NCBI GenBank assembly: GCA_913056525.1
Contig: CAJXLO010000001.1
Location: 43,189-107,188, forward strand
Origin: an uncultured Psychroflexus sp.
Lineage (GTDB): Bacteria; Bacteroidota; Bacteroidia; Flavobacteriales; Flavobacteriaceae
Length of the DNA: 64,000 bases
Reading direction: 5' to 3'
The translations under genes and the position numbers were made by a program. Below are positions 58,564 to 63,661 of the stretch, one piece after another (positions within the stretch are counted from its first letter, which is position 1; each line of letters starts with the position of its first letter). The notes below the pieces were generated by a model. The model was given only the letters and a program-made list of their open reading frames with translations, made no database searches and had not been told where the DNA came from.

Positions 58564-59670
58564 TTACTGCTTCATATCTGGATTACTGTCCTTGCTTAAA
58601 ATCTTATGCTGGTGTTCTATGGATTCCTGATGGATCGCCTTGAGGAACTTGTTGACAAAATCTTCGCTCAAGTCATTGTTCTTCCCGGCGTGGACCATCT
58701 TGGCCAATATCTCATTCCATCTTTTGTTCTGTAATATCGCCACATTGTTCTTTTTCTTTAAAGCACCAATATCATCAGCGATCTTCATTCGCTTTCCTAA
58801 CTGATTGATGATCTGATGGTCAATAACATCGATCTTGGTCCTCATCGTGTTCAGTTTGTTCTTGAACTCGGCCGCTTCGCCATGTTCTTTTCTAATCCTG
58901 AGGTCCACGGTCATTTGCTCCAGTGATTTTGGCGTGATCTGTTGTTTAGGGTCGCTCCAGGCATTATCCGGATCCCGATGTGTCTCTACCATCATTCCGT
59001 CATAGTTCAGGTCTAAGGCGGTCTGACAAATATCAAAAATCATATCTCGACTACCTCCGATATGCGATGGATCCACAATAAGCGGTAGGTCCGGGAATTC
59101 GTTCTGAAGGTCTACGGCTAATTGCCATTCCGGATTATTGCGGTAGCGCGTCTTTTCATAGGTAGAAAAACCTCTATGGATCACTCCAAGGTTTTTGATA
59201 TCCGCTTTATGCAAGCGTTCAACTGCACCCAACCATAAGGCCAGATCAGGATTAACCGGGTTCTTGACCAGAACGGTCTTATCCGTTCCTTTTAGCGCAT
59301 CAGCAATGTCCTGAACAATGAAGGGACTTACCGTACTCCTGGCTCCTATCCACAGCATATCAATATCTGCTTCTAATGCCAATTCCACATGGGCTTTGTT
59401 TGCTACTTCCGTGGCGATCATCAGGCCAGTTTCCCGTTTGGCTCTTTTGAGCCACTCCAGTCCTATCTTGCCTACTCCTTCAAAATTCCCGGGTTTAGTT
59501 CGTGGTTTCCAGATGCCAGCGCGCATCACGGATGTGTCCGTTTCCTTTAATTGATGCGCTATCGATAGGACCTGATCCTCAGTTTCCGCGCTACAGGGTC
59601 CTGCGATGACCAGCGGATGTTCTAATTGAAAAGCGTTCAGCCAGTTCCTAAATTGTTCTTTATTTTCCAT
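58564..59670 (-). CDS. bifunctional 3-deoxy-7-phosphoheptulonate synthase / type II chorismate mutase
   Basis: VIAGPCSAETEDQVLSIA, MLWIGARSTVSPF, MRTKIDVIDHQIINQLGKRMKIADDIGALKK. Confidence 0.94.
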   Translation of the reverse strand: MENKEQFRNWLNAFQLEHPLVIAGPCSAETEDQVLSIAHQLKETDTSVMRAGIWKPRTKPGNFEGVGKIGLEWLKRAKRETGLMIATEVANKAHVELALEADIDMLWIGARSTVSPFIVQDIADALKGTDKTVLVKNPVNPDLALWLGAVERLHKADIKNLGVIHRGFSTYEKTRYRNNPEWQLAVDLQNEFPDLPLIVDPSHIGGSRDMIFDICQTALDLNYDGMMVETHRDPDNAWSDPKQQITPKSLEQMTVDLRIRKEHGEAAEFKNKLNTMRTKIDVIDHQIINQLGKRMKIADDIGALKKKNNVAILQNKRWNEILAKMVHAGKNNDLSEDFVNKFLKAIHQESIEHQHKILSKDSNPDMKQ

Positions 59671-59680
59671 TACTTGATGA

Positions 59681-60532
59681 TTATGAATTGATTCCCTTTA
59701 AAATTGCTTTTAATCTGTTCGTATTGTCCATTTCCTTGTATAATTCTTCAAATTCTTCTGCTTCCAGGGCTTTTTGAAAAGCTTGCAAGTTATCAATGTA
59801 ATTCGCTAATGCCTGCTTCACTTCTACTTTATTATCCTTGAATATGGACGTCCAGGTCTGCGGACTACTCTTGGCTAATCTTACCGTAGATGCAAAGCCA
59901 CTTCCCGCAAGATCGGATATGTCGCGTTCGTCCTTTTCCTTATCGATAACGGTCTTGCCGAGCATGAAGGAACTGATGTGCGATAGATGTGATACATAGG
60001 CGATATGCTGATCATGCTCCTTCGGGTCCATATAACGGATGTTCATCTGCATTTGATCGAAAAGGCCGATCGCGCGTTGTTGTAAACTGAAACGCGTTTT
60101 TTCTACCTCACTGATTATCATTGTTTTGTTGTTAAAAAGTCCTTCAAATGCGGCTTGCGGTCCTGAAAATTCCGTACCAGCGATAGGATGCGTGGCCAAG
60201 AATTGATCCCGCTTGGGATGATCGACTAGCTGGCTACAAATATTGGACTTTGTAGATCCCGTATCCAATACCAAAGTATTATCGCTTACTTTATCCAAGA
60301 GTTCACGTATCGTCTCTGCTGAATTATCAACGGGTATGCTCACTACGATAATATCGGCAGAGGAAACTAGCGCATCCTTCGCAATGTCATCAATGATACC
60401 TAGGCTTTTGGCTGTTTTCAAATGAGCGGGTTCAATATCCATCCCCAGAAAGTCGGCTTCGGGAATTAGCTTCCTCATACTCAGTAATAAAGAACCGCCG
60501 ATCAGTCCCAGTCCAATTCCTACTATTCTCAT
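59681..60532 (-). CDS. tyrA: prephenate dehydrogenase
   Basis: VGIGLGLIGGSLLLSMRK, VLDTGSTKSNIC, ATHPIAGTEFSGP. Confidence 0.94.
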   Translation of the reverse strand: MRIVGIGLGLIGGSLLLSMRKLIPEADFLGMDIEPAHLKTAKSLGIIDDIAKDALVSSADIIVVSIPVDNSAETIRELLDKVSDNTLVLDTGSTKSNICSQLVDHPKRDQFLATHPIAGTEFSGPQAAFEGLFNNKTMIISEVEKTRFSLQQRAIGLFDQMQMNIRYMDPKEHDQHIAYVSHLSHISSFMLGKTVIDKEKDERDISDLAGSGFASTVRLAKSSPQTWTSIFKDNKVEVKQALANYIDNLQAFQKALEAEEFEELYKEMDNTNRLKAILKGINS

Positions 60533-61686
60533 ACTTCAAATGCTTTGGTCCTTCCTAAACATTCCCTTATCTGGTTCGACCCGACGCAAAGGGAGAATCT
60601 CATATAAGCTTTTCCCTGATCGCCAAAGACCGTTCCTGGTGTTACGAACATGTCGTGCTCATGTAGCAATCGATCCGAAAGTTCTTCTGCCTTTATGTCA
60701 GCTTTTATTCTGGCCCAGACGAACAAACCCGATGTATTTTTATCGTAAGAAAGTCCAAGTTGATCACAGAGTTCCCATATCAATCTTCTGCGATGAGCAT
60801 ATTTTTCATCCAATTCACTGATCCAGGATGAAGATGCGGCCAAAGCTGCGGTGGCACCTTTCTGTATAGGATAGAACATACCGCTGTCCATATTTGATTT
60901 TACCTGAACAACACTCTTTATCAAATCTTCATCACCGCATAACATTCCTATACGCCAACCTGCCATATTGAAAGATTTACTGAGCGAATTCAACTCCAGT
61001 AACTGAACATTATGATCAACAAACCTTAACAAGCTAAATGGTTTATCTGACAGTATCAAGCTATAAGGATTATCATTGACAATTAGTATGTTATGTTGCT
61101 TTGCAAACTCGATAAGCGAGCGTATCATTTCTTCTTTTGCATTGGCTCCGGTAGGCATGTGCGGATAATTGATCCACATCAGCTTTGTTCTTGGCGTTAC
61201 CAGTGCAGCCAGTTGATCAAGGTCCGGTTGCCAATCATGCTTAGCCTTGAGGTCATAATTGACCGGTTTTGCCTGTACAAGCCTTGTAACCGCCGCATAT
61301 GTTGGATAACCAGGATCTGGAACCAATACTTCATCGCCAGGGTTCACGAATGCCATGGAAATGTGCATGATACCTTCTTTGCTTCCCATCAGCGGCAGTA
61401 TCTCTTTGTCCACGTCTAACGCAACTTCATAATGAGATGCATAGAACGACCGAATGCCTTCACGAAATTCACGAATGCCTGCGTATGGCTGATATTGATG
61501 CGCCTTGTCATCTGCCGTTGCGGCGATCATGCTTTTGATGACATCTGCTGGTGGCTGAATATCCGGCGAACCTACGCCAAGATTAATGATGGGCTTTCCG
61601 ATCGCTTTGAGGTGATCTACCTCCTTTAGCTTCCTGGAAAAGTAATATTCTCTGGTCTGCGCTAGTCTTTCAGCGGTCTGTATCAT
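60529..61686 (-). CDS. pyridoxal phosphate-dependent aminotransferase (class I/II)
   Basis: NLGVGSPDIQPP, PYAGIREFREGI, NSLSKSFNMAGWRIGMLCG. Confidence 0.94.
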   Translation of the reverse strand: MIQTAERLAQTREYYFSRKLKEVDHLKAIGKPIINLGVGSPDIQPPADVIKSMIAATADDKAHQYQPYAGIREFREGIRSFYASHYEVALDVDKEILPLMGSKEGIMHISMAFVNPGDEVLVPDPGYPTYAAVTRLVQAKPVNYDLKAKHDWQPDLDQLAALVTPRTKLMWINYPHMPTGANAKEEMIRSLIEFAKQHNILIVNDNPYSLILSDKPFSLLRFVDHNVQLLELNSLSKSFNMAGWRIGMLCGDEDLIKSVVQVKSNMDSGMFYPIQKGATAALAASSSWISELDEKYAHRRRLIWELCDQLGLSYDKNTSGLFVWARIKADIKAEELSDRLLHEHDMFVTPGTVFGDQGKAYMRFSLCVGSNQIRECLGRTKAFEV

Positions 61687-62504
61687 ACGGCAGCTTGTTT
61701 ATATATTCCTAGAATTTGAAATTTATGGCATTTTTCTTTTAAACTTTCCATGATGCTAATGATGTCCGTGTGCTTATCGAACAGCATATCTATAAAGAAA
61801 GCATATTTCCATTTAGACCATCTCAACGGAACAGATTGTATCTTGGTCATATTGATATGATGCTTTTCCAGTAGCATTAATGCTTTGTTTAAACTTCCTG
61901 GTTCATGCGGTAGCTCAAAACGAATGGAGGCCTTATCAGCATTTTCAAGCATCAATCCTGTTTTACAAAGCTTAACGAACCTTGTGGCGTTAAGCTGATG
62001 GTCTTGAACATGGCTTTTGATAACGGCCAGGTCAAAAAGTTGAGCAGTGCCATCAGGAACGAGTGCGGCGACCTGTCTCTTTCTTTCTGTTGCGATAAGC
62101 TTTGCCGGCAATGCGGTATCCGTATCTTCAATAAGCTTAATTTCAGGATGTTGCTCAAAAAAATGACCGCATTGTAACAAGGCCATTTGATGAGAACGTA
62201 CACTCTTGATGTCTGCCAACTCCTGACCTTTCAAGGCGACGAGATCATGCTTGATATCCCAATTGTATTCTGCGGTAATGACCAGCTTATGATGACTGAT
62301 CAAATCGTAGTTGGGAAGAAGGCTCCCAGCAATGGAATTTTCGATCGCCATGATACCAAAATCCACCTCATCCTTTACGATCGCTGTGACCAATTGATCA
62401 AAACTATCACAGCAGACAAACATGTTATCCTCGGCGATGAAGTGCTGAGCAACCTGATAATGATTAGATCCCTCAATTCCCTGAATAGCTATCTTGTTTT
62501 GCAT
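61683..62504 (-). CDS. pheA: prephenate dehydratase
   Basis: IAIQGIEGSNHYQVAQHF, GIMAIENSIAGSLLPNYDLI, ACT domain FELPHEPGSLNKALMLL. Confidence 0.94.
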   Translation of the reverse strand: MQNKIAIQGIEGSNHYQVAQHFIAEDNMFVCCDSFDQLVTAIVKDEVDFGIMAIENSIAGSLLPNYDLISHHKLVITAEYNWDIKHDLVALKGQELADIKSVRSHQMALLQCGHFFEQHPEIKLIEDTDTALPAKLIATERKRQVAALVPDGTAQLFDLAVIKSHVQDHQLNATRFVKLCKTGLMLENADKASIRFELPHEPGSLNKALMLLEKHHINMTKIQSVPLRWSKWKYAFFIDMLFDKHTDIISIMESLKEKCHKFQILGIYKQAAV

Positions 62505-62511
62505 ATCTAAC

Positions 62512-62541
62512 AAAAAAAAGTCCCGAAATATTTTCGGGACC
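62512..62541 (-). terminator. rho-independent terminator acting as the attenuator of the aromatic operon
   Basis: Minus strand GTCCCGAAA-ATA-TTTCGGGAC (9-bp perfect stem) followed by TTTTTTTT, ending 7 nt before the pheA ATG. Confidence 0.9.
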
Positions 62542-62568
62542 TTATTATTCTATAGTGTTTTATATCTA

Positions 62569-62640
62569 TCAACAACAGTCCCATTTGCCTATCGGATAAG
62601 CATAATAGAAACCGTTCCAAAAAAATACGTTCGTTTTCAT
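62569..62640 (-). CDS. aromatic leader peptide MKTNVFFWNGFYYAYPIGKWDCC
   Basis: 24-codon ORF (stop included) directly upstream of the terminator; 8/23 residues aromatic (FFW, F, YY, Y, W); absent from the ORF track because of its length. Confidence 0.85.
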   Translation of the reverse strand: MKTNVFFWNGFYYAYPIGKWDCC

Positions 62641-62652
62641 AATGAATCGGCT

Positions 62653-62681
62653 AAAATATAGAATTGGGTTCTTCTGGGCAA
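62653..62681 (-). promoter_or_regulatory. putative promoter of the aromatic operon (TTG-N18-TATATTTT)
   Basis: Minus strand TTG (62681-62679) and TATATTTT (62660-62653), close to the Bacteroidota TTG/TAnnTTTG consensus, 12 nt upstream of the leader ATG. Confidence 0.6.
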
Positions 62682-62995: not shown

Positions 62996-63661
62996 ATGAA
63001 TAATTTAAGAAACCAAATCCTGGAAGTCGATGAACTTTCATATAGAGCGTTTACCGAGGTTTTAAGGAACAGCACTTCCAAGCCCGGATTCCTTCACCTG
63101 ATGATAAAAGATTGCTTCAGCAGCTATCAATTGCGTCAGACCATGGTCTATTTGAAGAAGGCAATGGCAAAACAAACAGAAAGAAAATGGGGCAAAACGC
63201 TAAACTATCAATGGCTAAGCCGATTTGACCAACAAGAGAACACAAAGTTCCACCGAGATAATGCGGCTGACGAATCAGTGTTGATATTAGGTTATGAACC
63301 ATCCGCCATACCATCTCGCTTGTTCATCGCCGACCATGTAGCATTCGCAAGAGCGAATCAATTATCGCCTACGGAATTTTTTGATGAGTACAATCCCTTA
63401 CTGACCGACCTGGGAAAGTTACTAAAACAACATCTTACTGAAGTTAAGGGTTTCAAGCATGATCACTTTAATATACTGATCATCAACAACAGCGACTCTG
63501 ATCTAACCTATGGTGTGCTCCACAAAGCCCTTATGCTGGAACAAGACCCACAAAAACCCCGGATCGTTAATTCGATGATGCTTCACCTGGTTGATGCATC
63601 AAAAAGTGAAGTTTCTCTAGATGAACATCGCTTTTTGATTACGGATAAAGTAGATAAATAG
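62996..63661 (+). CDS. hypothetical protein
   Basis: 221-aa ORF with good coding character; FHRDNAADES segment (HxD-like) but no family recognised with certainty. Confidence 0.7.
   Translation: MNNLRNQILEVDELSYRAFTEVLRNSTSKPGFLHLMIKDCFSSYQLRQTMVYLKKAMAKQTERKWGKTLNYQWLSRFDQQENTKFHRDNAADESVLILGYEPSAIPSRLFIADHVAFARANQLSPTEFFDEYNPLLTDLGKLLKQHLTEVKGFKHDHFNILIINNSDSDLTYGVLHKALMLEQDPQKPRIVNSMMLHLVDASKSEVSLDEHRFLITDKVDK

Follow-up and report, generated by a model that had tools for sequence, protein, structure and literature searches.

A conserved pheA leader with the anatomy of a Phe/Tyr attenuator in Flavobacteriaceae and related Bacteroidia

Vitreschak et al. are said to have predicted, in 2004, amino-acid attenuators in Bacteroidetes/Chlorobi as well as in Proteobacteria, and the curated RNA family RF01859 (Phe_leader) is one that we take to be a gamma-proteobacterial attenuator of the pheA/pheST type. 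Within Bacteroidota, Bacteroid-trp (RF01692) is the Trp counterpart (PMC2864571), a leader-peptide RNA like the one studied here but with Trp codons before trp genes. In addition, a transcriptome study of Flavobacterium psychrophilum describes, in its accessible text, strong hints that leader-peptide attenuation operates upstream of amino-acid operons, together with a structured element 5′ of pheA that is conserved in other genera of the Flavobacteriaceae without an Rfam hit (PMC9723704). That element and our leader precede the same gene in the same family, in different genera; unlike the present analysis, the accessible text of that report gives no anatomy of pairings between leader regions 1 to 4 (1:2, 2:3 and 3:4), no covariation and no range beyond the family. 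Beyond this text, our literature search found nothing specific to the pheA leader.

The window analysed here is a 64,000-nt stretch from a contig of a Flavobacteriaceae draft genome (1.97 Mb, 80% complete) whose close relatives include Psychroflexus and Mesohalobacter. Its pheA leader aligns over the full RF01859 model and shares with that family a Phe leader peptide, alternative hairpins and a terminator, with a score (25 bits, E 0.15) below the gathering score of 55. The match to RF01743, the leu/phe leader of Lactococcus and likewise an amino-acid leader RNA, is weak (17 bits; gathering score 70); the Rfam scan lists no RF01692 match for the pheA leader region, and no Rfam 15 family matches the leader at threshold. 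The leader thus has every structural attribute of the phe/trp attenuator mechanism, yet is not a member of the curated family. It is ordinary in kind, the mechanism being a known one, and it is real, conserved and mechanistically clear. We conclude that it is very probably a ribosome-mediated attenuator of transcription, as the earlier note had proposed, through which the supply of charged tRNA-Phe and tRNA-Tyr would govern the entire Phe/Tyr branch operon; its anatomy, conservation and folding under a ribosome mask support this reading. T-boxes and leader peptides do interchange before amino-acid genes (PMC2965389), and the sensor could in principle be a small-molecule- or tRNA-binding RNA, that is, a riboswitch or T-box, in place of the translating ribosome. 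We consider this almost vanishingly improbable, as the leader yields no T-box or riboswitch match, its best cis-regulatory match is the sub-threshold one to Phe_leader, and the conserved portion is a reading frame containing Phe/Tyr codons whose stop lies close to region 2.

Table 1 Features of the pheA leader and operon, in order of transcription
Feature	Position in window	Strand	Basis or remark
TTG, candidate -33 element, Bacteroidota-type promoter	62679..62681	-	consensus match only; 20 nt upstream of -7-like box
TATTTTAG, candidate -7 element (TAnnTTnG)	62651..62658	-	box also upstream of leader ATG in 49/55 relatives
Leader ORF, 23 codons, MKTNVFFWNGFYYAYPIGKWDCC*	62569..62640	-	ORF list; similar aromatic leader at 90/95 pheA loci
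Region 1 (AACGGUUUCUAUU, codons N9 to Y13)	62604..62616	-	pairs with region 2 in window fold
1:2 hairpin apex, UGCUUAU-CCG-AUAGGCA	62586..62602	-	folds in window
Region 2 (AAUGGGACUGUU), within codons K19 to C23; 2:3 core UGGGACU 62577-62583	62574..62585	-	alternative partner of regions 1 and 3
Region 3, terminator 5′ arm; 2:3 core GGUCCCG at 62535-62541	62532..62543	-	terminator prediction and 2:3 pairing
Region 4, terminator 3′ arm	62517..62528	-	hairpin and U-tract also in pheA relatives
U-tract, eight U, intrinsic terminator	62512..62519	-	sequence read directly
pheA, prephenate dehydratase with C-terminal ACT-like region, first structural gene	61683..62504	-	PF00800 E 6e-47
Class I/II aminotransferase, gene 2	60529..61686	-	PF00155 E 3e-66
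tyrA, prephenate dehydrogenase, gene 3	59681..60532	-	PF02153 and PF20463; NF006307 above cut-off
Bifunctional DAHP synthase/chorismate mutase, gene 4	58564..59670	-	PF00793 and PF01817 above cut-off

The gene content downstream of the leader, pheA, an aminotransferase, tyrA and a DAHP synthase/chorismate mutase (Table 1), indicates an operon that serves entry into the aromatic pathway as well as both the Phe and the Tyr branch. Its first gene starts with an ATG at 62504-62502 on the minus strand and has an ACT-like region that scores below the cut-off of PF01842. Phe, Tyr or Trp accounts for 8 of the 23 leader codons, with F6, F7, W8, F11, Y12, Y13 and Y15 as control codons, and the operon products are Phe and Tyr. 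Between the leader ORF and pheA lies an intrinsic terminator with a 12-pair stem (62543-62517). Its 5′ arm, its U-tract and the 7 nt from the end of the U-tract to the pheA ATG read as the earlier note had given them, with all coordinates correct to the base. Since the nearest ORF upstream of the leader (62996-63661 in the ORF list) has the opposite orientation, the terminator is not that of a neighbouring gene. Bacteroidota promoters include a -33/-7 type, with which the candidate boxes before the leader agree; the TAnnTTnG box is found in 49 of 55 relatives compared with 13% of shuffled sequences, mostly 17-20 nt from the leader ATG, and a TTG lies 16-24 nt upstream of it in 33 of the 55. 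These candidate boxes place the transcript start just before the leader ORF.

Among 95 pheA loci drawn from the genus, from the order and from a named genome collection, 90 combine an aromatic leader, a terminator and 2:3 complementarity. Their Phe/Tyr-rich ORFs have 17–27 codons (after trimming of two start codons), the terminator lies mostly 21–45 nt past the stop, and Phe makes up 27% of the leaders and Tyr 14%. Of the five uncounted loci, at least three are script misses, the leader being visible by eye in L006, L010 and L014. AT-rich DNA readily yields Phe and Tyr codons, and when the 491-nt intergenic region was simulated 20,000 times with a first-order Markov model, 4% of the simulations contained an equally aromatic ORF; this is what could be said for a plain terminator, belonging to a small RNA or an upstream transcript, that merely adjoins a chance ORF. 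However, the ordered pair of ORF and terminator arose in 0 of the 20,000 simulations, the nearest upstream ORF is divergent, and the pair is kept at those 90 loci with region 2 tracking region 3. Conservation already disfavours this reading strongly, and we judge it extremely unlikely.

The earlier note had singled out GCUUAU-CCG-AUAGGC as a possible pause or protector element. The hairpin is indeed present (62601-62587), and one of differing sequence occurs at the equivalent place in most of the relatives listed. As a stand-alone element it was rejected, its isolated stability being unremarkable in the window (z +0.49) and only mildly raised across relatives (mean z -0.75). This weak stability led us to widen the search to the full 1:2 hairpin: when the leader is folded without region 3, region 2 pairs with the control codons N9–Y13, and the small hairpin is just the apex of this longer structure. 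At least four core bases of region 2 similarly pair upstream in 56 of 58 non-redundant relatives, mostly with codons about 8–12, so that control codons lie in region 1 both in the window fold and in these relatives. Synonymous recoding of the leaders also costs stability: against recoded versions the native sequences have a mean z of -1.86, with p<0.05 in 27 of the 58. The 1:2 pairing completes the classical set of 1:2, 2:3 and 3:4. It also bears on whether the 23-residue peptide is itself a functional small protein, as a short conserved frame might lead one to suppose. The peptides diverge freely save in aromatic content, for example MTSRFYFYFNFYFAFKAKRG versus MASNRFYFSNNFYFFFSRSQDCAMVI, and some of the stretches that are conserved, NGF and GLF/GLL, map to regions 1 and 2 of the RNA pairing, a position that can explain their conservation in many leader peptides. 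We therefore hold a role for the peptide to be exceedingly improbable.

The alternative partner of region 2 is region 3, where UGGGACU (62583-62577; codons W20-D21-C22) and GGUCCCG (62541-62535) form the seven antiparallel pairs, G.U pairs included, that had been described before. The window helix is short, with a five-pair Watson-Crick core GGGAC:GUCCC, the commonest kind among the core families, and a G.U at either end; taken alone it stands out only modestly from shuffled region 2 (p 0.025-0.028). The mean energy of native 2:3 duplexes is -12.9 kcal/mol, compared with -6.0 kcal/mol when region 2 is shuffled. In 43 of the 58 non-redundant relatives, the best contiguous 2:3 helix outperforms shuffled region 2 (p<0.05). 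The combined Fisher chi2 of 490 (116 df) is not a strict probability, as the loci are related. At the level of sequence, we regard this comparison as the decisive one for the predicted antiterminator.

Regions 2, 3 and 4 change in concert, and the cores vary between lineages in a compensated manner, from GGGAC:GUCCC through GAGAC (or GAGGC):GUCUC and CAGGACU:AGUCCUG to AGGAUUG:CAAUCCU, CGAGG:CCUCG and AGGGGUU:AGCCCCU. A swap control is weak in raw duplex energies, where the median share of foreign region 3 sequences that pair equally well is 5%, and clearer once loci are grouped by core family; in 53 of 58, region 2 pairs more strongly with region 3 of its own leader than, on average, with region 3 of the other core families. 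Applied to 52 leaders aligned with MAFFT, RNAalifold recovered just three pairs of the terminator, since the position of region 3 differs by a base between rows, and the cores were therefore compared one by one. In an unbiased pairwise covariation scan of the 58 leaders some 3:4 and 2:3 columns rank high, a result confounded by row shifts and relatedness that we do not count as proof.

Helices 2:3 and 3:4 are mutually exclusive, and folding with the ribosome represented as a mask, under the assumptions of a 14-nt footprint from the A-site codon and of equilibrium energies, reproduces a switch between them. With Y15 in the A-site, the last masked nucleotide is transcript index 66, immediately before the first of region 2 (67); for RNA that extends to the end of region 3 and a mask set for Y13 or Y15 in the A-site, P(2:3) is about 1.0, which bears out the proposal that a stall on FYYAY leaves UGGGACU free for the antiterminator. 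With the ribosome at the stop codon, region 2 is covered, 2:3 is impossible and only 3:4 forms, again as had been proposed for a ribosome reaching the UGA. Both outcomes recur in all 58 non-redundant loci, and a stall leaves region 2 clear at 7 of the 8 aromatic codons of the window leader (median 9 of 10 in relatives), so that sequence, folding and geometry agree on a region 2 that is free on a stall and covered at the stop, in a helix that excludes the terminator. The competitiveness of 2:3 in leader folding, which the earlier note had made a test of its reading, holds for RNA that ends with region 3. With the full-length leader at equilibrium, 3:4 wins in every ribosome state, and 2:3 must therefore act kinetically, before region 4 is made.

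On this computed basis, namely the anatomy, a conservation accompanied by compensatory changes, and the equilibrium folds obtained with the ribosome at each position, we infer leader translation, actual termination, pausing and an amino-acid response along the following lines. RNA polymerase would transcribe the leader ORF, and the 1:2 hairpin forming behind it would probably pause the polymerase until a ribosome arrives and melts the hairpin. When Phe- or Tyr-tRNA is short, the ribosome would stall on F11-Y15 and cover region 1, leaving region 2 free to pair with the emerging region 3, so that the terminator is blocked and the operon read. Conversely, when Phe and Tyr are plentiful, the ribosome would reach the UGA and cover region 2, and regions 3 and 4 would form the terminator.

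The 7 nt between the U-tract and the pheA ATG in the window had also suggested that the terminator may occlude pheA initiation, and a switch acting mainly on translation, in which the hairpin hides the pheA start site and controls initiation in place of termination, can be derived from the same spacing. Because the distance from terminator to pheA varies among relatives from 7 to over 170 nt, occlusion is unsupported as a general feature. The U-tract is kept over this whole range, yet translational control gives it no role, and we rate such control as very unlikely.

Elsewhere in the class, other families and orders have comparable leaders, among them MKLFNTYYFGYFYYFSKSRG, which goes with GUCCCGG...CCGGGAC, and MTNNKAYGYFYFSFYFTGSRECFC. 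Almost none was found at the 30 best PF00800 loci of a wider phylum sample, mostly outside the class; these absences are soft, as the script sought ATG starts only and one form of terminator. The pheA genes L116–L121, from 0.6-Mb genomes of the order (the size of Blattabacterium-like endosymbionts), have neither a terminator nor a convincing leader, a pattern that loss of the attenuator on genome reduction would produce. When the RNA is folded ribosome-free to the end of region 3, equilibrium favours 2:3 over 1:2 in 42 of 58 loci, though 1:2 forms first. One might extend these results to a family of dual Phe/Tyr attenuators that spans the Bacteroidia, is absent from RNA libraries, and in which 2:3 beats 1:2 without a ribosome so that termination would need leader translation; in the textbook trp case, by contrast, a leader that is not translated does terminate. 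We put this extension forward only tentatively and think it rather unlikely in that full form. A contig labelled Saprospiraceae (L040) carries a pheA 47% identical to that of the window with a full attenuator (MKNFCTYYFFFYFFYPKETET), which reflects mislabelling, transfer or wide conservation.

Our study adds the full 1:2/2:3/3:4 anatomy with covariation, a corrected view of the supposed pause hairpin and a spread beyond the Flavobacteriaceae. It thereby indicates a textbook leader-peptide attenuator with three competing hairpins for Phe/Tyr synthesis across much of a class outside the Proteobacteria, coherent enough for description as an RNA family, and it supplies many natural compensatory variants for testing translation-transcription coupling in Bacteroidota.

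Other amino-acid operons of the genus have leaders of their own. His-rich leaders such as MKNYNLHHHLPSSLNAVGM precede hisG (L164-L172) and WWW leaders such as MFNNKNNSWWWSLLRQTS precede trpE (L174-L185), with a terminator-like hairpin after the leader in the hisG and trpE loci listed; these sister leaders count towards the attenuator reading of the pheA leader. One trpE leader of the genus passes RF01692 (59.5 against a threshold of 49), and the two hisG loci scanned against Rfam gave no match. HisG and full-length TrpE have no match in the window's own draft genome (80% complete) or in its relative G009 (96% complete), and nearly all other members of the genus have both. This lineage may thus be a His and Trp auxotroph that has kept its Phe/Tyr operon together with the attenuator.
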